Of a DNA stretch of 20,729 nucleotides, positions 10,390 to 20,679 are shown one piece after another. This stretch comes from a virus. The position numbers and the translations under genes were made by a program. The DNA lies in IMG/VR virus record IMGVR_UViG_3300050821_007235, positions 1-20,729 of that record, one strand, 5' to 3'. A model generated the notes under the pieces. It worked only from the letters and a program-made list of their open reading frames with translations, made no database searches and was not told where the DNA came from. Position 1 is the first letter of the stretch, and each line of letters opens with the position of its first letter.

Positions 10390-10418
10390 TTGCGATACCA
10401 ACGTTATGTTGGTATATT
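10390..10418 (+). promoter_or_regulatory. Promoter A with embedded palindromic operator (10395-10415)
   Basis: TTGCGA (10390-10395) and TATATT (10413-10418) are 17 bp apart. The spacer is filled by the 21-bp palindrome ATACCAAC-GTTAT-GTTGGTAT. The same arrangement recurs at three other sites, so it is a regulated promoter for the rightward operon starting at 10469. A regulator bound here would block RNA polymerase. On the opposite strand the hexamers are poor (TGAATA and TATCGC). Confidence 0.75.
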
Positions 10419-10427
10419 CAAATTGTT

Positions 10428-10445
10428 GCCGGCGATTGGCGCCGA
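10428..10445 (+). promoter_or_regulatory. Leader hairpin copy 1
   Basis: CGGCG-ATTGG-CGCCG forms a 5-bp stem in the 5' leader, 24 bases before the ATG at 10469. It is followed by TAGGAGCCTACCC, which holds the ribosome site. The same element precedes 16066, 17737 and 19122. Confidence 0.55.
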
Positions 10446-10468
10446 TGACGTGATTAGGAGCCTACCCT

Positions 10469-11590
10469 ATGTTTGACAAACTCTCTGCCGCGCAACTGGT
10501 CAAAGTGTTCAATGCGGTGACGGACCGCGTGAAGCCGGTCCGCAAGTTTGAATCCCATGCGCGCGCCCTGGCGCTGACCATTGCGGAGCTTGACCGCATG
10601 CAGGTGTCGGCGCCGGTTGCCCTGGCGCGCGCCGGCCTCCCGGTCCCGGCGGATGCACCGGCGGAGGATCAGGCCACGCGCTACGGCAAGATCGCGGACG
10701 GATTGGCCGCGGATTACAACGCCATGGTTGACAAGGCCGCGGCGGAGCGTGCGGCGGAGGCGGAGGCCACGGTGCCGCTGAATCCGAGCGTTGATGGTCT
10801 GTTTGACGCCGCGGCGGCGGAGCGGTGCCAGCCTTGGGGAACGGCGGACGAGTATGAGGCCCCGGCGCCTAAGATTGGCACATGCCTGCACTGCGGTTCA
10901 CTGCTTTCCGCGGTGACGGGTGAATGCGTCCGCGGTGTCCACTGTCCCGGGGAGCTCTTGCCGGCAGGCCGCACGCCCCGCATGGGTCCCAAGCCTGGCC
11001 GCGAGACGCTGAAGCGGTCTGAGCGGCAGTTTGTCCCCACGGCCACCGATGCCGTCAGCGGCGCGCCGGTGGAGCTCCGGTCACTGCATGGTCCGGTCCG
11101 GACCGTCGAGGGTGATCCGGAGAAGGCCGCGGCCAAGATCGCCAAGGACTCGGTGAAGGAGCTCCGCCAGGCCCGGCTTGAGCGGCAGACTGCCAAGGTT
11201 GCCAAGCGTGCCCGCCAGGCGGCGACGACGACCGAGAAGGTGCTTGTCCGCACGGAGGCGTGGCCATACGCCAAGGCGGCTGAGGCTCCGGCGGTCCCCA
11301 CCGCTCCGCCGGTCAAGGCGCCGGCAAAGACGGACGGCCTCACAGCCGAGCAAACCCGCCTGCTCGTGGCGTTGATTGACTGCAAGGCCTTGGCTGGCAA
11401 GCCGCTCCATGAGCGGGCCGGTGAATGGGTCAAATACAAGGCCATCCATGACAGCGACACGCCGCACAACCTGGCCAAAGGGCAGCTGCCCGGTTTGACC
11501 GGTGCACTCCGCCGCCGCGGTATGATAGAGCTCCGCGGTAGCAGCGCGAACGGTGAGGTCCGGTTGACGGCCGCTGCATTGGAGGCGTGA
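10469..11590 (+). CDS. Zinc-knuckle phage protein of unknown function
   Basis: The 373-residue product starts MFDKLSAAQLVKVFNAVTDR. The N-terminal 45 residues form helices in a style I recall from phage accessory proteins (LxKxxNxxxxxxVKxF). A Cys4 knuckle lies at C139, C142, C153 and C159 (CLHCG ... GECVRGVHCPG). A Lys/Arg/Ala-rich helical stretch spans about 215-255, then a Pro/Ala linker (271-287). The C-terminal domain (about 290-373) ends GALRRRGMIELRGSSANGEV, which looks like a winged helix. A nucleic-acid-binding role is inferred. It is the first gene after promoter A, with TAGGAG before the ATG, and overlaps the next gene by ATGA-type coupling (TGATG). Confidence 0.78.
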   Translation: MFDKLSAAQLVKVFNAVTDRVKPVRKFESHARALALTIAELDRMQVSAPVALARAGLPVPADAPAEDQATRYGKIADGLAADYNAMVDKAAAERAAEAEATVPLNPSVDGLFDAAAAERCQPWGTADEYEAPAPKIGTCLHCGSLLSAVTGECVRGVHCPGELLPAGRTPRMGPKPGRETLKRSERQFVPTATDAVSGAPVELRSLHGPVRTVEGDPEKAAAKIAKDSVKELRQARLERQTAKVAKRARQAATTTEKVLVRTEAWPYAKAAEAPAVPTAPPVKAPAKTDGLTAEQTRLLVALIDCKALAGKPLHERAGEWVKYKAIHDSDTPHNLAKGQLPGLTGALRRRGMIELRGSSANGEVRLTAAALEA

Positions 11591-11952
11591 TGCAAGCAGC
11601 AGAGCTACCGGAAATAGTTGAGCTCCGGGAGGCCGTCAAAGGCCTCCCGTTCCGTTTCGCAAAGAGCATGCCGGAGATTCCGCACTGGTATATCGTGCGG
11701 AGCCCGGAGAACGAGGCGACGTATGTCGCCCTGTTTCATGCCATCCACAAGCACGGCTACACCGGCAGTTTTCGCGGCCGGAAGAACAAGTATTTGGAGC
11801 TCGGTGACGGCTTCAAGTATTGGGCCATGACCACAAATCTGAATATCAGCAAGATCATCAACCGGGACGTGCCGGCAAAGCCGCAGGCCACTCCGGAGAC
11901 GCGTAGTAGCCGCGTGACCGGCGGCATCGCCGGCGGCTCCGACGAAGCCTGA
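11590..11952 (+). CDS. Conserved phage hypothetical protein
   Basis: The 120-residue product starts MQAAELPEIVELREAVKGLP. The core FRFAKSMPEIPHWYIVRSP, TYVALFHAIHKHGYTGSFRG, KYLELGDGFKYWAM and NISKIINRD is a pattern I recall from phage proteins without known function (PH-x-Y/W-x-V/I, GDG-x-KYW-x-M, INR). The ATG at 11590 overlaps the upstream TGA by one base; a GTG at 11587 in the same frame is less likely. It ends nine bases before the convergent ParB-like gene. The Gly/Ser-rich last 25 residues appear disordered. Confidence 0.72.
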   Translation: MQAAELPEIVELREAVKGLPFRFAKSMPEIPHWYIVRSPENEATYVALFHAIHKHGYTGSFRGRKNKYLELGDGFKYWAMTTNLNISKIINRDVPAKPQATPETRSSRVTGGIAGGSDEA

Positions 11953-11955
11953 CGC

Positions 11956-11971
11956 GCCGGCCTAGGCCGGC
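11956..11971. repeat. 16-bp perfect palindrome at a convergent gene junction
   Basis: GCCGGCCTAGGCCGGC is perfectly self-complementary. It spans the 9-bp gap between the rightward gene ending at 11952 and the leftward gene ending at 11962, and includes the latter's TAG. It could act on both transcripts as a stem at the end of each, but there is no U run and no natural loop, so a terminator role is tentative. Confidence 0.4.
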
Positions 11972-12765
11972 ACCAGGTCCCGGCAGATTTGCAACAGGCG
12001 CTCCGCGGGCCGGTCCCCGAGCACCGTTTTGATAACCTTCGCCTCGTCATCCGCGAACATCAGGTTGATGCGGTAGAACGTGCCATCCTTCCGCGCGAGC
12101 TCCCGCTCTTCCTCCGTGCGAGCCTCCGCCATCCGGGTTTCCTGGCGCCGCTGCACCTCAATTGCATTCACCGACGCGGCGGATGTCTGGACAATCCCGG
12201 AGCCGTTCGTGTCGGTGGCACGGTCCGTGATCTCGGCGTCCTCCGGCCGCTCCCCGGGCGCCCATGCCGTTGAGTATTCAGCGCCGGCCAGCGCGTCCGG
12301 CGCCGGCACGTCCGCGAGTAGCTTCTCAATCTCCGCGTCACTGAGCATCAAACTGTCAGCGGCCCATTCAAGCGCGCCGAGCTTTTCCAGGTCCCGGAGG
12401 ACCTCGGCGGAGAGTTGCAGATCCTCCGCGCCCCTGGCCCGGTTGTGGCGGAGCGTGGCGATCCGCGCTTGCTCCGGGGACATGCTCACCAGCACGACCG
12501 GGAGCGTCGTCATGCCGAGATGCGCCGCGGCGCGCCAGCGGTGCTCCCCGTCAACAATCACCCGCGTCTCGCGCTGCACGATGACGGGTTGCGTGAACCC
12601 GTCCTCCCGCATGGAGCGCAGTAGAAGCTCAAAGTCCTTCTCGCTCATCCGGTTGGGATTGTATTCGTTCGGCTTCACGGACTCGATCGGCACATACTCG
12701 ATGACCAGCGTTTCCAACGCGACGTTGGTTTTGATCGGCGGCGTCTTTGAGGCGCGTTTCGCCAT
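11962..12765 (-). CDS. ParB/Srx-fold nuclease-like protein (IbrB-like)
   Basis: The 267-residue product has a ParB-type domain in residues 20-110: EYVPIESVKPNEYNPNRM, DFELLLRSMREDGFTQPVIV, then the core DGEHRWRAA (72-80) and a LRHNRARG segment. This fold covers plasmid partition ParB, sulfiredoxin and the DGQHR proteins of DNA-modification loci. A PP-loop enzyme and a methyltransferase lie just upstream, so partition is unlikely; IbrB-like regulation or DNA modification is a better guess. The C-terminal part (from about 170) is charged and helical with RINLMFADDEAKVIKTVLG, perhaps for partner binding. The ATG directly follows the TAG of the methyltransferase gene. Confidence 0.87.
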   Translation of the reverse strand: MAKRASKTPPIKTNVALETLVIEYVPIESVKPNEYNPNRMSEKDFELLLRSMREDGFTQPVIVQRETRVIVDGEHRWRAAAHLGMTTLPVVLVSMSPEQARIATLRHNRARGAEDLQLSAEVLRDLEKLGALEWAADSLMLSDAEIEKLLADVPAPDALAGAEYSTAWAPGERPEDAEITDRATDTNGSGIVQTSAASVNAIEVQRRQETRMAEARTEEERELARKDGTFYRINLMFADDEAKVIKTVLGDRPAERLLQICRDLVPA

Positions 12766-13440
12766 CTACAAGGGTCCTTTGCGCGTGATGGTGCAACCGG
12801 CCGCTGCCAGGCGGGTCAACGTGCACGACATGCGCCACGGGGAGAGCTCAAGACCCAGGAACGTCCCGCCCGCTGTAGCCGCCGTGACAGCCGTCAGGCC
12901 GCGGCCGGCGCAAGGGTCCATTACAACGTCACCGGGCCGCATGCAGGCATTGAGCGCTGTTTTCGGGGTATCCTCGTCGTCCATCCCGGCGAGCCCGTCC
13001 ACATCAGCGGCCGGACCCTGCCAGCGCAGATGCAGAAGCATGCAGGGATGCCGCCGGTAATAGGTGATCGGCCAGCGCCGGATGACCTCCCCGCCGTGGC
13101 GCTCCGCCAGGTCCATCAGGTGCGGCGCGTTGGCGAGCCCCATTTCCAGGAACACGTCACGGCGCGCCATGCGAACCACGGTGAGCAGCTGATCCAGGAA
13201 CGCCGTGAAGTTCACCTGGCGCGGTGTCCCGGCTTTCGTGCGGAACGCGCCGGCGTTGCCGTCATTCCAAGGCGGGTCGGAATAGACCAGGTCCGGAGCT
13301 CCGAACTTGTCAACGAGCCGGAGCCCGTCCCCGGCTTCCAAATCCCCGCAAGCGATAACGTGAGGACCCGCGCGCCACACGTCGCCAGGTTGAACCGGAT
13401 AGTTGAGGCCTCCGGTGGAGGCGTAGTGCCACGGGCTCAT
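12766..13440 (-). CDS. DNA methyltransferase-like protein with DPPW motif
   Basis: The 224-residue product has motif IV YSDPPWND (53-60) near the N-terminus and SAM-binding motif I MDPCAGRGLT (174-183) near the C-terminus, the order of beta-class amino-methyltransferases. The lead-in PGDVWRAGPHVIACGDLEA matches the start of methylase domains that in many phages are fused behind a ParB domain; here the two are separate adjacent genes. DPPW fits N6-adenine chemistry. The ATG at 13440 forms ATGA with the stop of the PP-loop gene. The frame stays open to 13725, but that extra part is the antisense frame of the upstream gene. It is shorter than most such enzymes, and target recognition must come from the short middle region or a partner. 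Confidence 0.85.
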   Translation of the reverse strand: MSPWHYASTGGLNYPVQPGDVWRAGPHVIACGDLEAGDGLRLVDKFGAPDLVYSDPPWNDGNAGAFRTKAGTPRQVNFTAFLDQLLTVVRMARRDVFLEMGLANAPHLMDLAERHGGEVIRRWPITYYRRHPCMLLHLRWQGPAADVDGLAGMDDEDTPKTALNACMRPGDVVMDPCAGRGLTAVTAATAGGTFLGLELSPWRMSCTLTRLAAAGCTITRKGPL

Positions 13441-14600
13441 GACCAGGTCGGTGAATGACCGCCCCAACTGCCGGCGCCGTGGCGGAAGAACTCCGGCTCC
13501 ATCGCGCGGTTGCCGCCGATCCCCTGCGTCTTCAGCGCGAACGGGTCCCCGTTGTAAAGCGCCATCGCGAGTGAGCGCCAGGCGCCCATATTGCCGACGC
13601 ACATATAGCAAGGCTTCACGTCCGGGAACGGCGCCGTCGAATGATGTGCATGGAGCGATAGCAGCGCGCGCATGACGTTCGTGGAGCGCTCCGCAATCCA
13701 CGGCGCCGGCGCCTCCGTGATGCACTCCCGCATAAAGGTGTCGTGCCAGGTTTCGTCAGTGCGCCGGTGCGGCATCACGGCGCGCGCGCCGAACTGCGAT
13801 ATGGTTTTGACGCCCGGAAGCCGGTCCTCCACCTTATCAAACCATCGCGGCCAGGCCTTCCGCGCCATCTCAAGCAGATACACGGAGGCGGAGTTGAGCG
13901 TCGGCGGCGCGATCCGCATTTTCGATAGAGGGATATTGAACCGCATCATGGTGTCGTAAGCCCGGTTGTAATCCCACTGATTGTCTCTGACCGCGCGCCA
14001 CACGTCCGCATCCTGCCAGTCATAAATCGGTCGGCAATTCCGGGTCCCCATGGCGTTCGGCTTGGTCAGGTGCCCGCCGGCGGCGAACACGCTGTAACGC
14101 CGGTTTTGACTTTCGCTCGCGCGGATACCAATGACCGCGAATATGTCTTTGCCTGGCGCCGTGGGATACGTCTGCCGTGTGATAATCCGCGTGATGTCGA
14201 GAGCGTCGATCCGGGTTGCGCACTCCGGCGGTTGGCGGACCCATTGCTCCGGGCGGAGCTCCGGGTCAAAGACCCACCAGTACGGCGCACGCCGGTTGAA
14301 CACGTTGACAATCGGTTGGTTGGCCACGCACCAGCGGAAATCAACCTCGGGCCGCTTGGCGACCCGCTCCGCATATTCAAACGTCCCCGGGAGCATTACC
14401 TCTTCATCGCGCATCGAGACGTGCACCGGGAGCCGGCCGGTCATCCGCGCCGCCATGATGGCGAGCTCAAGACAGACGCCGCTATCCTTCCCGGCACTGA
14501 AGGCGACGACCACGGTGTGCCCGCCGGCGTAGAGCTCATGGAGCCGCTGCAAGGCTTGCTCGAACACGTCGAGCCCGGTCCGTGACCGTGACTTGGTCAT
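13437..14600 (-). CDS. PAPS-reductase/IbrA-like PP-loop ATP pyrophosphatase
   Basis: The 387-residue product has the PP-loop SAGKDSGVCLELAI (35-48), which adenylates a substrate using ATP. The domain continues with GIRASESQNRR (158-168), PIYDWQDADVW (191-201) and a Cys pair CYMC (331-334), the layout of the DUF3440/IbrA and phage PAPS-reductase-like group. Cys127 and Cys189 could help bind sulfur or a metal. Relatives include sulfate-assimilation CysH, DndC of DNA phosphorothioation, and IbrA, which acts with ParB-like IbrB in E. coli. No sulfur donor gene is visible here. The ATG forms ATGA with the upstream methyltransferase stop. Real sulfate reduction is unlikely in this setting. Confidence 0.88.
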   Translation of the reverse strand: MTKSRSRTGLDVFEQALQRLHELYAGGHTVVVAFSAGKDSGVCLELAIMAARMTGRLPVHVSMRDEEVMLPGTFEYAERVAKRPEVDFRWCVANQPIVNVFNRRAPYWWVFDPELRPEQWVRQPPECATRIDALDITRIITRQTYPTAPGKDIFAVIGIRASESQNRRYSVFAAGGHLTKPNAMGTRNCRPIYDWQDADVWRAVRDNQWDYNRAYDTMMRFNIPLSKMRIAPPTLNSASVYLLEMARKAWPRWFDKVEDRLPGVKTISQFGARAVMPHRRTDETWHDTFMRECITEAPAPWIAERSTNVMRALLSLHAHHSTAPFPDVKPCYMCVGNMGAWRSLAMALYNGDPFALKTQGIGGNRAMEPEFFRHGAGSWGGHSPTWS

Positions 14601-15316
14601 GCCGGACGCGCGGCCTCAATGATGAGATAGCGACCGGCCTCCGGGAACCGTCGCGCGAGTAAGGCGTCAAAGCGCAGCAACGGCGTCGGCAGGATCGAGA
14701 ACGCTGACAGGCGGATGAGCTCCGGATAAAAGCCGGCCAGGTGGAAACGTGTGACGGCCTGCCAGGCGCTCCATGCCGCGGGCGCCAGGTGCAAATGAAG
14801 ATCACCAGCACAGTCCGCGTTACGGCGATACCACCGCGGCGCATAGACCATCACGAAGCATCGGCCGCCAGGCCGGAGAACACGAAAAATCTCACGCACG
14901 GCCCTTGCAGGTCCGGGGACGTAGGAGAGCGCGGAGAAGATCGAGACGACACGCTCAAACTGTCCGTCAGGGAACGGCATGGCCTCCACGGAGGCCTGAT
15001 AGAACGTGGCGTTCGGATACTGCCGCCCGGCCTCCGCCAGCATACCGGCTGACACGTCTATGCCGGTGTAATGCCACACCGGCCACTTCACGAGACGCAA
15101 GAGTGCGCCTGTGCCGCAACCGACATCCAAGAGATCACCCATAGAGCTAGAGCCACGGAGGAACGGGCGGAGACTGGCGGCCAGAAGCCGATCCTCGGCG
15201 CAGCAACGGCGGGAGCGAAACACGCTGTCATATCGTGGCGCGATGCGATCAAAGCCACTGGCCACAAGCGCCGCGGTGATAGGCGGCTTGTGGATTTCAA
15301 ATACTGCTTCATTCAC
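14597..15316 (-). CDS. Class I SAM-dependent methyltransferase
   Basis: The product has motif I LLDVGCGTGALL, the acidic loop HYTGIDVSAGMLAEA, motif II FPDGQFERVVSIFSALSYVP and motif III EIFRVLRPGGRCFVMVY, a standard small-molecule/protein-type Rossmann methyltransferase, not a DNA amino-methyltransferase. The substrate is unknown. A GTG at 15316 preceded by AAGGGG gives 239 residues and starts after the stop of the tiny membrane gene. An ATG at 15385 gives 262 residues but overlaps that gene by 41 bp and has a poor ribosome site. The C-terminal part (FHLAGFYPELIRLSAFSILP) is typical lid. Being first of a coupled run with the PP-loop enzyme suggests a shared pathway. Confidence 0.85.
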   Translation of the reverse strand: MNEAVFEIHKPPITAALVASGFDRIAPRYDSVFRSRRCCAEDRLLAASLRPFLRGSSSMGDLLDVGCGTGALLRLVKWPVWHYTGIDVSAGMLAEAGRQYPNATFYQASVEAMPFPDGQFERVVSIFSALSYVPGPARAVREIFRVLRPGGRCFVMVYAPRWYRRNADCAGDLHLHLAPAAWSAWQAVTRFHLAGFYPELIRLSAFSILPTPLLRFDALLARRFPEAGRYLIIEAARPA

Positions 15317-15344
15317 GCTTGCATCAGCCCCTTGTTCTACCGGC

Positions 15345-15500
15345 TTAGTCCCGCGGCCCGATCCAACGGTGGAGGCGGGGATCATAGGGCACGCTGCGAG
15401 CCTCGGGCGGGTTGGATGGCGACGGTTTCAGCAATCGCAACGCCAGGACGGTCAGCAGTAGCGCGGCTATCATCAGCCCGTATCCGATGAGGGCGCTCAT
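15345..15500 (-). CDS. Single-span membrane microprotein (51 residues)
   Basis: The ORF starts MSALIGYGLMIAALLLTVLA, has a basic boundary (LRLLK), and ends with a short Pro-rich polar tail (PSPSNPPEARSVPYD ... WIGPRD). That is one predicted membrane helix with a tail of about 27 residues. Its ATG overlaps the stop of the zinc-ribbon gene by ATGA, the same coupling used along this operon. No family recognised. Partial overlap with the longer start of the methyltransferase is the main argument against it. Confidence 0.6.
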   Translation of the reverse strand: MSALIGYGLMIAALLLTVLALRLLKPSPSNPPEARSVPYDPRLHRWIGPRD

Positions 15501-15886
15501 GGCGCCGGGTCCCCCACGCGCTGAGCGCCGCGCGGATCAAGGCGGCCATATCCTTTCGCCTGGACATAGGCGCCGGAGGCGCCGACCTTGGCCGTGCCGA
15601 GGATCGGGAAGCGGCCCAAGAGGGACTGACCGAAGACGCGGACCTGGTCGCCAACCTTGATCCCCTTGGCCTTCCAAACGGCCTCACCCTCGGCCCGGGC
15701 CTCCGCCTTGACGGTGGCAATCCACGCGGTGCGCCAGGCATCATAGGTCGCGCTCAAGCCGTGCACCTTGTTGCAGGCCATGCAGACGCCGACCCAGGCG
15801 GTTTCAGGCGGAACCGGCGGGACGTTGGTATCAGCGGTCCGGTTGCAGAACTTGCAGGTGTCAATCCAGGTGCGGCGCGTGGCCAT
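15497..15886 (-). CDS. Zinc-ribbon protein of unknown function, first gene of leftward operon
   Basis: The 129-residue product has a Cys4 ribbon CKFC (11-14) and CMAC (35-38). An alpha-helical middle follows (DAWRTAWIATVKAEARAEGE), then a C-terminal beta domain (GIKVGDQVRVFGQSLLGRFP and GTAKVGASGAYVQA) that looks like a small SH3-like barrel. It is expressed from promoter B: AAGGAG lies 8 bases before the ATG, about 30 bases from the -10. Zinc ribbon plus barrel suggests nucleic-acid or protein binding, but this is inference. Confidence 0.75.
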   Translation of the reverse strand: MATRRTWIDTCKFCNRTADTNVPPVPPETAWVGVCMACNKVHGLSATYDAWRTAWIATVKAEARAEGEAVWKAKGIKVGDQVRVFGQSLLGRFPILGTAKVGASGAYVQAKGYGRLDPRGAQRVGDPAP

Positions 15887-15912
15887 TAGCGTGTCTCCTT
15901 CTTACAGGAAAC

Positions 15913-15941
15913 ACTATACCAACATTCCGTTGGTATGTCAT
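15913..15941 (-). promoter_or_regulatory. Promoter B (leftward) with embedded palindromic operator (15916-15936)
   Basis: On the minus strand ATGACA (15941-15936) and TATAGT (15918-15913) are separated by 17 bp. The spacer lies within the palindrome, read on the plus strand as ATACCAAC-ATTCC-GTTGGTAT. Both hexamers match consensus at five of six positions. It would drive the leftward operon from 15886. There is no leader hairpin after this copy. Confidence 0.78.
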
Positions 15942-15989
15942 GCGCAATTAGCGCACGCTGGACACTCCGCCGATGCATAGCGATTAAAC

Positions 15990-16018
15990 TAGCAATACCA
16001 ATACAATGTTGGTATGTT
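15990..16018 (+). promoter_or_regulatory. Promoter C (rightward) with embedded palindromic operator (15995-16015)
   Basis: TAGCAA (15990-15995) and TATGTT (16013-16018) are 17 bp apart, with ATACCAAT-ACAAT-GTTGGTAT between and over them. The -35 is weak (three of six). It is divergent from promoter B, with operator centres 79 bp apart, and would drive the operon starting at 16066. Confidence 0.7.
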
Positions 16019-16027
16019 TCATTTGTC

Positions 16028-16048
16028 CGCCGGCGATTGGCGCCGGTG
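16028..16048 (+). promoter_or_regulatory. Leader hairpin copy 2
   Basis: CCGGCG-ATTGG-CGCCGG gives a 6-bp stem, extendable to 8 with one G-U pair. It ends about 19 bases before the ATG at 16066, and GAGGACCCTCCC follows as the ribosome-site region. The stem and loop bases are identical to copy 1 except at one edge. Confidence 0.6.
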
Positions 16049-16065
16049 ACACAGAGGACCCTCCC

Positions 16066-16281
16066 ATGACCGCACAAGAGATCGCCGCTATCCGCATGGT
16101 TGCTGAAGCGATTGAGGACGCCGTGAAGGCCGCCGGCCCGTTGGGCGCACCAGGCGGCGTGATCTATGCCGCGCTTATGGCGCACGGCGTGACCCTTGAC
16201 CAATACAACCAACTGATGAGCGGCCTTGTCCGCGCCGGCCGGTTGACGCGGGATGGCCACCTTTACCACGTGGCGAAGTGA
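16066..16281 (+). CDS. Small winged-helix-like phage protein
   Basis: The 71-residue product starts MTAQEIAAIRMVAEAIEDAV. It has an Ala-rich helix, then GGVIYAALMAHGVTLDQYNQ, MSGLVRAGRLTRDG and a final HLYHVAK strand. The helix-helix-helix-wing order suggests a DNA-binding wHTH, and I recall similar short proteins in alphaproteobacterial phages. It is first in the operon from promoter C, so it could be a self-regulating factor, but nothing here shows which site it would bind. The ATG is chosen for the AGAGGA upstream. Confidence 0.72.
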   Translation: MTAQEIAAIRMVAEAIEDAVKAAGPLGAPGGVIYAALMAHGVTLDQYNQLMSGLVRAGRLTRDGHLYHVAK

Positions 16282-16288
16282 GGGTGTG

Positions 16289-16618
16289 ATGGACGCGCCC
16301 GTAACCGCAGAGGAAATCGAGGCCTTCCGCGCCGCCCTTGAGGCGATGCTGGCCGCGCATCACACTACCGCCCGGAATGTCGGCACGCCTCCGCGCGTGC
16401 TGATAATGCCTGGCGCGCGCTATGCGCGGATCGTCGTGGAGGACAATCCATCAAGCCGATATGCTTATGGCTTCATCGAGTTCGCCACCGGCAACCTGCT
16501 GAAGTCGGACGGTTGGAAGACGCCGGCCCGCCATCCGCGCGGCAACCTTCGCAACGCTGAGCCGCTGTCAGGCTGCGGTCCGTATGGCATGGCGTATCTC
16601 ATGAGCGGGAGGCGATGA
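16289..16618 (+). CDS. Hypothetical phage protein
   Basis: The 109-residue product has a helical N-terminus (TAEEIEAFRAALEAMLAAHH) that resembles the upstream protein's opening. A beta-rich part follows: YARIVVEDNPSSRYAYGFIE, then FATGNLLKSDGWKTPARHPR and GNLRNAEPLSG. The YGFI-x-x-x-TG-x-x-LK-x-x-W-K-x-PA-x-H-x-RGN pattern is one I recall from phage proteins of unknown function. AGGG lies 5 bases before the ATG at 16289. The frame is open to 16253, but that would run into the previous gene. Confidence 0.7.
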   Translation: MDAPVTAEEIEAFRAALEAMLAAHHTTARNVGTPPRVLIMPGARYARIVVEDNPSSRYAYGFIEFATGNLLKSDGWKTPARHPRGNLRNAEPLSGCGPYGMAYLMSGRR

Positions 16619-16848
16619 TGACAATGCACTACACGGTGACGGTCACCGATTGGACGCAACCGCGAGGCTATCGCGGGAGCGGGAGAGGCTGGCGGGTCCG
16701 GTGCTTCGGCCTGCCGGATGATAATTGGAACGCACTCGGGCACACGGTTTCCGAGCAGTTTTTCCGGTCGCAGGCCGCGGCCGTGAAGGCGGCGCGGGAC
16801 CTGGCGAAGCTCTACAGTGCCACGCTCAACCTGCCGGGCGGGGAGTAG
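16615..16848 (+). CDS. Hypothetical protein (77 residues)
   Basis: The product starts MMTMHYTVTVTDWTQPRGYR. Beta segments (HYTVTVTDW, GWRVRCFGL) come before a helix (SQAAAVKAARDLAKLYSATL). The ATG overlaps the previous stop by ATGA; a second ATG follows at once, and a third sits two codons later. No family recognised. The coupling to both neighbours in a six-gene run is the evidence that it is expressed. Confidence 0.65.
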   Translation: MMTMHYTVTVTDWTQPRGYRGSGRGWRVRCFGLPDDNWNALGHTVSEQFFRSQAAAVKAARDLAKLYSATLNLPGGE

Positions 16849-16852
16849 GTCG

Positions 16853-17071
16853 ATGGGGTTCGCTTTCTGCATGGGTCCGTGCATCACGTGCGGCCGACCG
16901 TTCTCTTACAATCCGCTCCGGGTCCCGAGCACGTCCGCGATCACCGGGACGCGGGAGCCGGTTTGCCGGTCCTGTATGGACTTTATCAACACGAAACGGG
17001 AGACGATGGGCCTCACGCCGTTCCCGATCTTCGATGACGCCTATGAGGCCGTATCAGAGGACGAATTATGA
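16853..17071 (+). CDS. Zinc-ribbon phage protein
   Basis: The 72-residue product has CMGPCITCGRPFSYNPLRVP and then TREPVCRSCMDFINTKRE. Two CxxC pairs (C10/C13 and C43/C46) form a zinc ribbon, with an extra Cys at 6. The order CxxCGRPF-S-x-NP-x-RVPS and REP-x-CR-x-C, with a tail PxxxDAYEAVSEDEL, is widespread among small phage proteins of unknown role. GGGGAG lies about 8 bases before the ATG. It overlaps the next gene by ATGA. Confidence 0.78.
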   Translation: MGFAFCMGPCITCGRPFSYNPLRVPSTSAITGTREPVCRSCMDFINTKRETMGLTPFPIFDDAYEAVSEDEL

Positions 17072-17373
17072 AACGCACATCACTTGCCGCCCTGGCGCTC
17101 TGCGCCACGCTGGCCGCGCCTGCCCGCGCTGACCAATATGTTGCGACGCATGGCACTTCGAATCAGATGGTTTGCCGGAACTTCATGTTGCACGGCACGA
17201 CATTCACGGACTGCTATCCGTTGAAGGATTATCAGGCATGGCAACAACGCCAGGCGGCCCGTGAACATGACGCCGTCGCTGAATACAAGCGGATTTGCGC
17301 TCTGCCACCTGAGCAACGGCCGCGCGGCAGTGAAGAGTGCTATAACGTCCCCGGCAACTATGGTTATCACTGA
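17068..17373 (+). CDS. Small secreted protein with signal peptide
   Basis: The 101-residue product has a classic signal peptide: MKRTSLAALALCATLAAPAR ending ARA before DQYVA, so cleavage after residue 21 is likely. The mature part (about 80 residues) has four Cys (36, 49, 77 and 91), enough for two disulfides in the periplasm, and no membrane helix. C36/C49 and C77/C91 are plausible pairs. A phage export product could act in superinfection exclusion or lysis control, but I do not recognise the family. It is the last gene of the operon from promoter C and overlaps the zinc-ribbon gene by ATGA. Confidence 0.7.
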   Translation: MKRTSLAALALCATLAAPARADQYVATHGTSNQMVCRNFMLHGTTFTDCYPLKDYQAWQQRQAAREHDAVAEYKRICALPPEQRPRGSEECYNVPGNYGYH

Positions 17374-17435
17374 TGACCGCCCGGCCACGGAGCGCGGGAG
17401 GCGCCAACGTGCCAACCGATTTAGATACCACGGCA

Positions 17436-17621
17436 TCAGTAGCGCCAGTGTGGGAGGCCTCCGCCGAACAGCAACACGATCACCACGATGAGCACGATCA
17501 GGCCGAGGCCTCCGCCGGCGTAGTATCCCGGCCCCCAACTCGCGCGTGATCCGTAGCGATATATTCCTCCGCCTCCGCCGAATAGCAGAACCAACACGAT
17601 AATCAGTAGCAACAGGTCCAT
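17436..17621 (-). CDS. Two-helix membrane protein, DUF3309-like
   Basis: The 61-residue product reads MDLLLLIIVLVLLFGGGGGI, a short Gly/Tyr/Arg linker (YRYGSRASWGPGYYA), then GGGLGLIVLIVVIVLLFGGG and a PHWRY tail. Two hydrophobic helices are near repeats of each other, with LLFGGG after each. This pattern matches small membrane proteins common in alphaproteobacteria (DUF3309-like). GGAG lies 8 bases before the ATG at 17621. It is the only leftward gene among the rightward accessory genes, and its promoter would have to lie in the same short gap as promoter D. Function is unknown. Confidence 0.7.
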   Translation of the reverse strand: MDLLLLIIVLVLLFGGGGGIYRYGSRASWGPGYYAGGGLGLIVLIVVIVLLFGGGLPHWRY

Positions 17622-17658
17622 CGGCGGAGCTCCGTTTGAATGTGCGCCGCGCATTCAC

Positions 17659-17687
17659 TGGACATACCAACAAAACGTTGGTATAAG
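17659..17687 (+). promoter_or_regulatory. Promoter D (rightward) with embedded palindromic operator (17664-17684)
   Basis: TGGACA (17659-17664, five of six) and TATAAG (17682-17687) are 17 bp apart, with ATACCAAC-AAAAC-GTTGGTAT between and over them. The hexamers are among the best of the set. It drives the operon beginning at 17737. Confidence 0.78.
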
Positions 17688-19121: not shown

Positions 19122-19454
19122 ATGACACGCAATCAATTCCGCAACACGCTGGCGGCCCTCGAAATGTCGCAAGGGGCTCTGGCGCGCCTGTTGGCCCACC
19201 TTGGGGATACCGCTGACCCACTGACGATCCGCCGGCGCGTGGAGCGATGGGCACAAGGCGGGACGCCGATCCCCGGCGAGGCCGCGGCGTTCATTAACCT
19301 ATTCGCGAAGTTTCCAGACCTACGCCGGAAGCTGCGTGAAGAGGGATGGGACGATCAAGGCTTCGGCACCGGCCGGCTCCCGCGCAAGTCACCGGGACCA
19401 AACCCGGAAATCATTGAGGAAACGGCAAAGCTGGCTTTCCGGGCGCCAACATGA
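19122..19454 (+). CDS. HTH-like phage protein
   Basis: The 110-residue product starts MTRNQFRNTLAALEMSQGAL. The segment EMSQGALARLLAHLGD, then LTIRRRVERWAQGGTPIPGE and AAAFINLF (about 14-61) has the spacing of a phage helix-turn-helix of the XRE/Cro class, and IRRRVERW could be the recognition region. The rest (FPDLRRKLREEGWDD and a polar tail) looks unstructured. It is a candidate regulator for the operators, but this is only by default. The ATG follows GAGAGGACC and leader hairpin 4. It overlaps the next gene by ATGA. Confidence 0.7.
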   Translation: MTRNQFRNTLAALEMSQGALARLLAHLGDTADPLTIRRRVERWAQGGTPIPGEAAAFINLFAKFPDLRRKLREEGWDDQGFGTGRLPRKSPGPNPEIIEETAKLAFRAPT

Positions 19455-19729
19455 GCGACACCGGCCCGGAGGGTCACGGTGGCGGTGGTCGGTGGTTGAC
19501 AGGGAGTGAGCAGCCCCGGTGGCCGACATTGGCCTATCTCCGTGGCGCACTTGTGATCTACCTCATCGCCTCCCTCCTGGCGGCAGGGCTATTTTTTGTG
19601 GTCATGGTCGTGGTCACTTTGACGGCTGATGGTTTGAATGGCCTTGGCCACAACGGAAGTTGGCCTATTACTGCGGTGTGGCCCTTGATGGAATTACACT
19701 TACGGCAAGCGCACTGCACGTTCTCATAG
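19451..19729 (+). CDS. Membrane protein, 3' end antisense to the HNH gene
   Basis: The 92-residue product starts MSDTGPEGHGGGGRWLTGSE. It has one strong membrane helix (ALVIYLIASLLAAGLFFVVM continuing VVVTLT) after a Gly-rich cytoplasmic head. The last 30 residues (SWPITAVWPLMELHLRQAHC) lack clear structure and overlap 172 bp of the opposite-strand HNH gene, so the natural C-terminus may have been replaced. The ATG forms ATGA with the HTH-like gene. No family recognised. Confidence 0.55.
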   Translation: MSDTGPEGHGGGGRWLTGSEQPRWPTLAYLRGALVIYLIASLLAAGLFFVVMVVVTLTADGLNGLGHNGSWPITAVWPLMELHLRQAHCTFS

Positions 19730-20679
19730 GTGTGTGAGCCGCCGGCGGCAAAGGGGATGCGATGGTCCAATTCCGGCGCGTCATCAGACGTGCCTCCGAT
19801 CATCAAGCGCGGAGTATCAACGCCACATATCTGACATTGCCAACGGTCCCGCTCAAATACCGTAACGCGCCTGACAGATTCATGCGGGACGCCGGCCCTC
19901 TTGGCGCGTTGGATGTGGTTGCTTTCGCCTCGATTCCGGATGCGCCGCATGCACCTTTTAGAACAGAATAGCCTGGCACCATGCCCCCTAATGAATAGCT
20001 TTCCACATCGCTTGCACGCCAACTCAATTTTGGGCTTTCGCATTGAGTCATTGATACAAGCCTGTGAACAATACTTCCTCTTACCACAATACTTCCTCTT
20101 ACCTATGAACGTCACGCCGCACTGCATGCACTCGGTCCGTAATGTAAGGACACGCAGGAATGTCACGCGGGCAGTCCGGAGGGCCGTTTCCGCGACCTGT
20201 TGATCACGCGCTGGCTTAACCCGGGCAGAGCACCGCTTTGAGCAGAAGCGTTGCGGACGGCTGGCCCTGACGGTAAATGACACGCCGCAATGCTCGCAGG
20301 CTTGCTCTATTAACCGGCTCCGGGCTTGCATCGCATTGCGGCATGCCAGCGAGCAATAGCGCCGTGGGGGATTGGCGGTGTAGGCCGTGAACAATTTGCA
20401 GCAAGCCGGGTTGGCGCAAGTGAGCGTCTTGATGGCGCTCTCACCGTAAGGGCGGACCTCCCGCCCGGTCGCAGCGCGGACGCGCTCCCGGTATTGATCA
20501 GCCTGTTTTGCAAGCATTGTCGGAGCGCTATGTAAATAGCGATCCTTCAACGTGCCGGCCGGGAGCCTGGCTTTGTATGCCGCTGAACGGCACGCGTTGG
20601 AGCAATACTTGCGCGCGGGACCCCTCTTACCCCGCTTCCCCGCGGGTCCTCCGCATCGCAGACATCCCGTTGATTCCAT
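19558..20679 (-). CDS. HNH endonuclease with five Cys4 zinc fingers
   Basis: The 373-residue product has five Cys4 fingers of the style CxxCG...F/YCSxxC: C6/C9/C26/C30, C88/C93/C109/C113, C128/C131/C146/C150, C184/C187/C204/C208 and C222/C225/C239/C243. The HNH domain follows: ERDRWQCQICG, then PELDHRIPFAAGGSHTYENV and CACRKCNSIKG (D305, H306, N320, C325/C328). The fingers probably recognise DNA and the HNH cuts it, as in homing or packaging-linked nucleases. A recent 18-bp duplication sits in finger 4. The gene stands alone, opposite to its neighbour and overlapping it, which fits a mobile insertion. The ATG at 20679 has a weak ribosome site. Confidence 0.85.
   Translation of the reverse strand: MESTGCLRCGGPAGKRGKRGPARKYCSNACRSAAYKARLPAGTLKDRYLHSAPTMLAKQADQYRERVRAATGREVRPYGESAIKTLTCANPACCKLFTAYTANPPRRYCSLACRNAMQARSRLIEQACEHCGVSFTVRASRPQRFCSKRCSARVKPARDQQVAETALRTARVTFLRVLTLRTECMQCGVTFIGKRKYCGKRKYCSQACINDSMRKPKIELACKRCGKLFIRGHGARLFCSKRCMRRIRNRGESNHIQRAKRAGVPHESVRRVTVFERDRWQCQICGVDTPRLMIGGTSDDAPELDHRIPFAAGGSHTYENVQCACRKCNSIKGHTAVIGQLPLWPRPFKPSAVKVTTTMTTKNSPAARREAMR
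20068..20103. repeat. Perfect 18-bp tandem duplication in the HNH gene
   Basis: ACAATACTTCCTCTTACC occurs twice head to tail (20068-20085 and 20086-20103). On the coding strand it doubles GKRKYC, giving KRKYCGKRKYCSQAC in the fourth finger. No base differs between the units, so the event is recent. It inserts an extra Cys into the finger. Confidence 0.9.

Follow-up and report, generated by a model that had tools for sequence, protein, structure and literature searches.

A repeated promoter operator and leader hairpin at the accessory operons of a group of uncultured phages

Repression through a promoter repeat has been published for Aca2 (PMC8434428), and promoters with one or two inverted repeats are general among the Acas (PMC9410906), the repeat lying inside the core promoter (PMC8434428; PMC9410906). 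In archaeal viruses, one early motif is common to many small genes and is thought to be under the control of Aca8 (PMC11065993). A comparable arrangement is described here for the virus record IMGVR_UViG_3300050821_007235, a stretch of 20.7 kb (hereafter the window), in which a 21-bp palindromic operator, set between the -35 and -10 hexamers of four promoters, is mostly followed by a conserved leader hairpin. Repeated operators read by one repressor at several promoters are also a property of P1 C1, SP-beta and the stoperators of mycobacteriophage L5, where such dispersed-operator repressors keep lysogeny and differ between immunity groups. In MerR promoters, the palindrome likewise lies between -35 and -10, in a spacer that is typically 19-20 bp long. 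Finally, RNA binding by Aca2 has reportedly been described by Birkholz et al. in 2024.

The initial annotation of the window had noticed four palindromes of the form ATACCAAY-N5-RTTGGTAT, and all four are exact copies at the positions that it gave:

10395-10415, plus strand: operator 1, ATACCAACGTTATGTTGGTAT, with -35 TTGCGA at 10390-10395 and -10 TATATT at 10413-10418
15916-15936, minus strand: operator 2, leftward, without hairpin leader, with -35 ATGACA at 15936-15941 and -10 TATAGT at 15913-15918
15995-16015, plus strand: operator 3, with -35 TAGCAA at 15990-15995 and -10 TATGTT at 16013-16018
17664-17684, plus strand: operator 4, with -35 TGGACA at 17659-17664 and -10 TATAAG at 17682-17687

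None of 100 dinucleotide shuffles of the window contained an operator match, even with 3 mismatches allowed. The rest of the genome was judged through relatives, for which a scan of the viral collection returned three contigs carrying the operator in multiple copies:

3300025934_000539 (G1): 14 kb, 4 operators
3300036828_000249 (G2): 36 kb, 6 operators
3300021478_000029 (G3): 63.5 kb, 5 operators

The terminases of these relatives are 84-97% identical to that of the window, and in all four contigs the operator block adjoins the terminase in a region of accessory genes. The 19 operators of the four contigs, which are fragmentary and belong to uncultured phages, were pooled. Fourteen of the 21 operator positions are invariant; position 8 is either C or T, position 14 either G or A, and only A or T occurs at the centre. 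All 19 sites are intergenic. A position matrix built from all the sites gives the true operators scores of 34.8-41.7 and the next best sites 16.0 (G2) and 10.3 (G3), with no operator of intermediate score. The scan of relatives that had been proposed as a check did not find the motif at random positions: in G3 all five operators lie at 2.3-10.9 kb, and no operator occurs in the remainder of this 63.5-kb contig, which includes the structural genes and the CI/Cro-like and recombination region. The restriction to non-structural operons, first noticed in the window, holds in both G2 and G3. What had been called a phage-wide regulon is borne out as a shared operator, with the same geometry in three other contigs, and not in its extent, the regulon being limited to one accessory block. 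The exact sequences of the relatives speak for conservation and not for mechanism.

Outside this group, a search with the operator alone matched 90 stretches of viral contigs, almost all of them single copies and at chance level, and a looser pattern joining an operator half to the hairpin was discarded, its matches being at chance level as well. From the viral set, the strict operator-hairpin pattern returned only the same contigs and, from genomes, unrelated coding matches and no host. In terminase relatives with 64% and 59% identity, no operator was found when up to three mismatches were allowed, and the retrieved portion of the 64% relative has no other repeated palindrome. As a separate observation, a three-mismatch copy of the operator, TTTCCAACGCGACGTTGGTTT, is present in the window at 12711-12731, within coding sequence close to where the ParB-like gene starts.

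The fixed register between operator and promoter, claimed earlier for the four window sites, is confirmed over all 19. With the direction of each promoter set by the downstream gene, the match of the -35 hexamer to TTGACA averages 4.16 of 6 positions at a spacer of 17, and 0.2-2.2 at spacers of 14-16 and 18-20, while reading these palindromes in reverse gives 1.79; the -10 hexamer averages 4.84 forward versus 3.26 reversed (forward versus reverse, p = 6e-5). Several promoters are close to consensus, as in TTGACA-17-TATTAT (G2 4034) and TTGCAA-17-TATAAT. Others have poor -35 hexamers with 2-3 matches of 6 (G2 5034, G3 10885 and W 15995, where W stands for the window), the last one belonging to the weak promoter of operator 3 (3/6 at -35, 4/6 at -10), and at G2 5034 and G3 5404 an equal or better -35 is found at a spacing of 18. 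The operator covers the 17-bp spacer together with the last base of the -35 and the first three bases of the -10, so that a bound dimer would cover both promoter elements.

The second half of the cassette, which the initial annotation had overlooked, is a conserved hairpin and translation leader present at 16 of the 19 operators. The near-invariant hairpin CCGGCG-A(N1-3)GG-CGCCGG lies 12-14 nucleotides downstream of the operator and is followed by a Shine-Dalgarno sequence, a C-rich spacer and the start codon, the distance from the end of the operator to the first start codon being 48-53 nucleotides. Most operons of the accessory block open with this cassette. In most of the units with a hairpin leader, a C-rich run (CCTTCCC, CCTACCC) is conserved just before the start codon. 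The three operators without a hairpin (W 15916, G2 6660 and G3 5483) all face the methyltransferase/PAPS-reductase operon. A covariance model recovers the 16 leader hairpins and the internal copies W19086, G3 1619 and G3 4657, all at no less than 35 bits; those of the window are the following:

10429-10445, plus strand: leader hairpin 1, CCGGCGATTGGCGCCGA, lengthened by flanking pairs, 39.4 bits
16030-16046, plus strand: leader hairpin 3, CCGGCGATTGGCGCCGG, 35.5 bits
17698-17713, plus strand: leader hairpin 4, CCGGCGATGGCGCCGG, 39.6 bits
19086-19102, plus strand: internal hairpin, CCGGCGACTGGCGCCGG, with no operator, before the helix-turn-helix (HTH) gene, 36.2 bits

Four internal hairpins lack an operator, and three of them precede a small HTH gene. 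The hairpin before the HTH gene of G2 has the loop CCCC and scores 21.5 bits. The loop measures 4-6 nucleotides between fixed arms, in which one G-U pair occurs in three copies of G1 and a terminal mismatch in two copies; since G-U replaces G-C and the loop length varies, an RNA structure is a better reading of the element than a second DNA dyad. No T-run accompanies the hairpins, which are not intrinsic terminators, and an Rfam search of the hairpin returned no family at the gathering threshold. As transcripts start about 7 nucleotides past the -10, the hairpin would start some 3-5 nucleotides into the transcript, and it probably acts on the 5' end of the mRNA or on translation. In the window, a further, leader-like hairpin of 26.2 bits lies at 11910-11943 on the minus strand, immediately beyond the leftward operon and inside a convergent gene. 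In G2, a putative half-decayed operator, ATATCCTCGGAACATTGGTAT (L233 2034-2054, minus strand), is accompanied by the CCCC-loop hairpin at 1990-2023, directly before the HTH gene. The next-best matrix site of this contig (16.0), which overlaps the end of the gene preceding the HTH gene, may be a decayed operator, and this suggests that the HTH gene of G2 formerly had a full cassette of its own.

The system combines the layout of the ZF40 type with a shared motif of the archaeal type. As in acrIF8-aca2 of Pectobacterium phage ZF40, a near-consensus promoter has a palindrome within its 17-bp spacer, a repeat able to form a hairpin lies where the transcript starts, and an operon downstream of such a promoter contains small unknown genes and encodes a small HTH protein (PMC8434428; PMC9410906). 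Unlike the described acr-aca promoters, which head one operon, the cassette is repeated 4-6 times per contig in identical form; moreover, the hairpin is distinct from the operator and stands upstream of the Shine-Dalgarno sequence rather than over the start codon, the HTH protein is not recognisable as an Aca2 homologue, and general scans identified no known Acr. An AUGG loop common to the ZF40 hairpin was set aside as coincidence, since the AUGG of ZF40 holds the annotated start codon. The likeness to the archaeal viruses consists in many small early genes with one strong promoter motif and one Aca thought to repress them, whereas their promoters are of the archaeal TATA/BRE type, the regulator is different and the source, as excerpted, describes no leader hairpin (PMC11065993).

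Two products had been suggested as regulators, those of the genes at 16066 and 19122. The former probably does not serve as the common regulator, having no homologue in G3 despite the five operators there, and a fold search with it gave only weak winged-helix matches. The latter stays the best candidate for the protein that would bind the operator:

19122-19454, plus strand: small HTH protein of 110 amino acids, encoded by the distal gene of operon 4
1670-1978 in G2: homologue of the HTH gene
1317-1583 in G3: homologue of the HTH gene

The gene lies within an operator-headed operon in the window, G2 and G3, and G1 does not span that stretch. Residues 16-46 are nearly unchanged in a protein that is 69-73% identical as a whole; the HTH region is much better conserved than the remainder, which is what an unchanging operator would require. 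Relatives of this protein turned up only in operator-bearing contigs, protein and operator sharing a narrow distribution. By profile, HigA-2 is the one solved relative that comes near significance, in a weak hit with E = 0.01; HigA-2 is the antitoxin that Aca6, Aca9 and Aca10 resemble (PMC9410906).

The explanation that we prefer, with moderate confidence in it as a whole, is that a dimeric HTH repressor binds the 21-bp operator in strong sigma70-type promoters, with feedback by operon 4 and a hairpin acting on RNA. Most likely, a repressor of the Aca/Cro type would occlude RNA polymerase and thereby brake the strong promoters, the bound protein covering both promoter elements, and one regulator probably switches the whole accessory block. 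At phage entry no repressor would yet be present and the accessory operons would all fire early; operon 4 would then produce the repressor, most likely the 19122 HTH protein, which, in the manner of Aca and Cro proteins, would turn off the entire block through negative feedback. The rightward transcripts would start at, or a few nucleotides from, the conserved hairpin ahead of the ribosome-binding site, and the hairpin would serve on the RNA for protection of the 5' end or as a binding site for translational control. The operators, the promoter register, the hairpin, the geometry of the cassette, its conservation and its confinement to the block are observations; repression, the regulator's identity, the timing and what the hairpin does are inferred. 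Several points weigh against this explanation. The 19122 protein has no Pfam, PHROG or PADLOC match, its comparison with Aca2 is not significant (hhalign probability 0.6%, 17 columns) and its AlphaFold model has no confident fold (pLDDT, the predicted local distance difference test, of 47), being too poor for a fold search. The 10469, 11587 and ParB-like proteins are equally restricted and conserved, the HTH gene is distal in its operator operon in both the window and G3 rather than directly behind the operator, and the contigs of the window, G1 and G2 stop short of the early region. The hairpin is unlike the operator, so that one protein reading both is not implied. Lastly, covariation in the outer stem and flanking pairs is no better than in shuffles and was rejected as proof of RNA structure, and for this reason the action of the hairpin on RNA is only what we infer.

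An unlikely alternative, though the strongest one for the operator itself, is that a host regulator, or another phage protein from the early region, binds the palindrome, the block then reporting the state of the host or lysogeny. Phages with HTH proteins of only 69-73% identity have an identical operator, as expected of a host reader, the 19122 protein lacks a confident fold, and G3 carries two other HTH genes, a divergent CI/Cro-like pair at 52.3 and 53.1 kb. Against this, 385 alphaproteobacterial genomes contain the operator as three single copies only, although this class may not be that of the host; a host search by terminase in 385 alphaproteobacteria reached 42% identity at most. The 90-bp gap of the G3 pair holds a different inverted repeat, TGCAAGGGA/TCCCTCTTGCA (L231 13045-13080), instead of the operator. 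This repeat is likely the operator of the pair, whose genes were rejected as the regulator, no operator of the present type lying near them. Classical control of the CI type is disfavoured, as is MerR-type activation. Unlike the sites of P1 C1, SP-beta and L5, the operator is invariant across diverged phages, and the single accessory block that contains it lies apart from the CI/Cro-like region. That the palindrome serves a MerR-like or class II activator remodelling the promoter, which the initial annotation had kept beside repression, is very improbable: the site does lie between -35 and -10, and some -35 hexamers are poor, but the spacer is 17 bp rather than 19-20 bp, no MerR-type domain was found in the ten window proteins scanned, and near-consensus promoters with optimal spacing make an activator unnecessary, which favours repression.

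Two further readings concern the hairpin and are compatible with the HTH repressor. The hairpin could be a plain 5'-terminal stabiliser of the mRNA or a standby structure, independent of the operator protein, to which we give somewhat less than an even chance; the predicted transcript start within a few nucleotides of the hairpin and the internal copies before genes without operators agree with it, whereas the near-invariance of the inner stem in sequence, and not merely in pairing, suggests a specific reader. More doubtful is a double control like that of Aca2, an extension of the repressor model rather than a competitor, in which one HTH protein would bind both the DNA palindrome and the leader hairpin and block transcription and translation. 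The ZF40 promoter, read directly, has the same layout (TTGCTT-17-TATAAT, spacer palindrome, then hairpin), and a hairpin stands ahead of the HTH gene in the window, G2 and G3; however, the ZF40 hairpin holds the annotated start codon and its IR2 resembles IR1, unlike the present hairpin, and the loop of the G2 copy is CCCC. Slightly more speculative still is the idea that one small HTH protein might read the promoter palindrome and an unlike 5' RNA hairpin at each operon, shutting a whole anti-defence block at both levels through a reusable cassette.

The cassette offers a sequence tag for the co-regulated, mostly unannotated accessory genes of this phage group. A shared motif was used in this manner to predict anti-defence genes of archaeal viruses (PMC11065993), and the cassette-marked genes would be worth testing as weapons against bacterial defences. 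The group also provides a multi-operon test case for whether Aca-like proteins act on RNA leaders besides promoters, and, the operator being identical across diverged phages, one reporter would test all of them. Pfam, PHROGs, PADLOC and NCBIfam scans of selected genes of the block, with no Acr-dedicated library among them, returned no anti-defence family. The units of the window are as follows:

10469-11590, plus strand: opening gene of rightward operon 1, coding for an unknown protein; its homologues in G1-G3 all follow this cassette as well
11962-15886, minus strand: leftward operon of five genes under operator 2
15497-15886, minus strand: unknown protein of the leftward operon
14597-15316, minus strand: methyltransferase of the leftward operon
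13437-14600, minus strand: PAPS-reductase/DndC-like protein of the leftward operon
12766-13440, minus strand: DNA methylase-like protein of the leftward operon
11962-12765, minus strand: ParB-N protein of the leftward operon
16066-17373, plus strand: rightward operon of small genes, first product of 71 amino acids, predicted winged helix
17737-19069, plus strand: rightward operon with operator 4 at its head, made up of small unknown genes

The product of 13437-14600 is similar to PAPS reductase, DndC and BrxP and has DNA methylase-like and ParB-N proteins as neighbours; these three genes possibly form a DNA-modification set under the leftward operator. At 19558-20679, on the minus strand, an open reading frame of 373 amino acids with several cysteine pairs and an HNH-like C-terminus faces the HTH operon.

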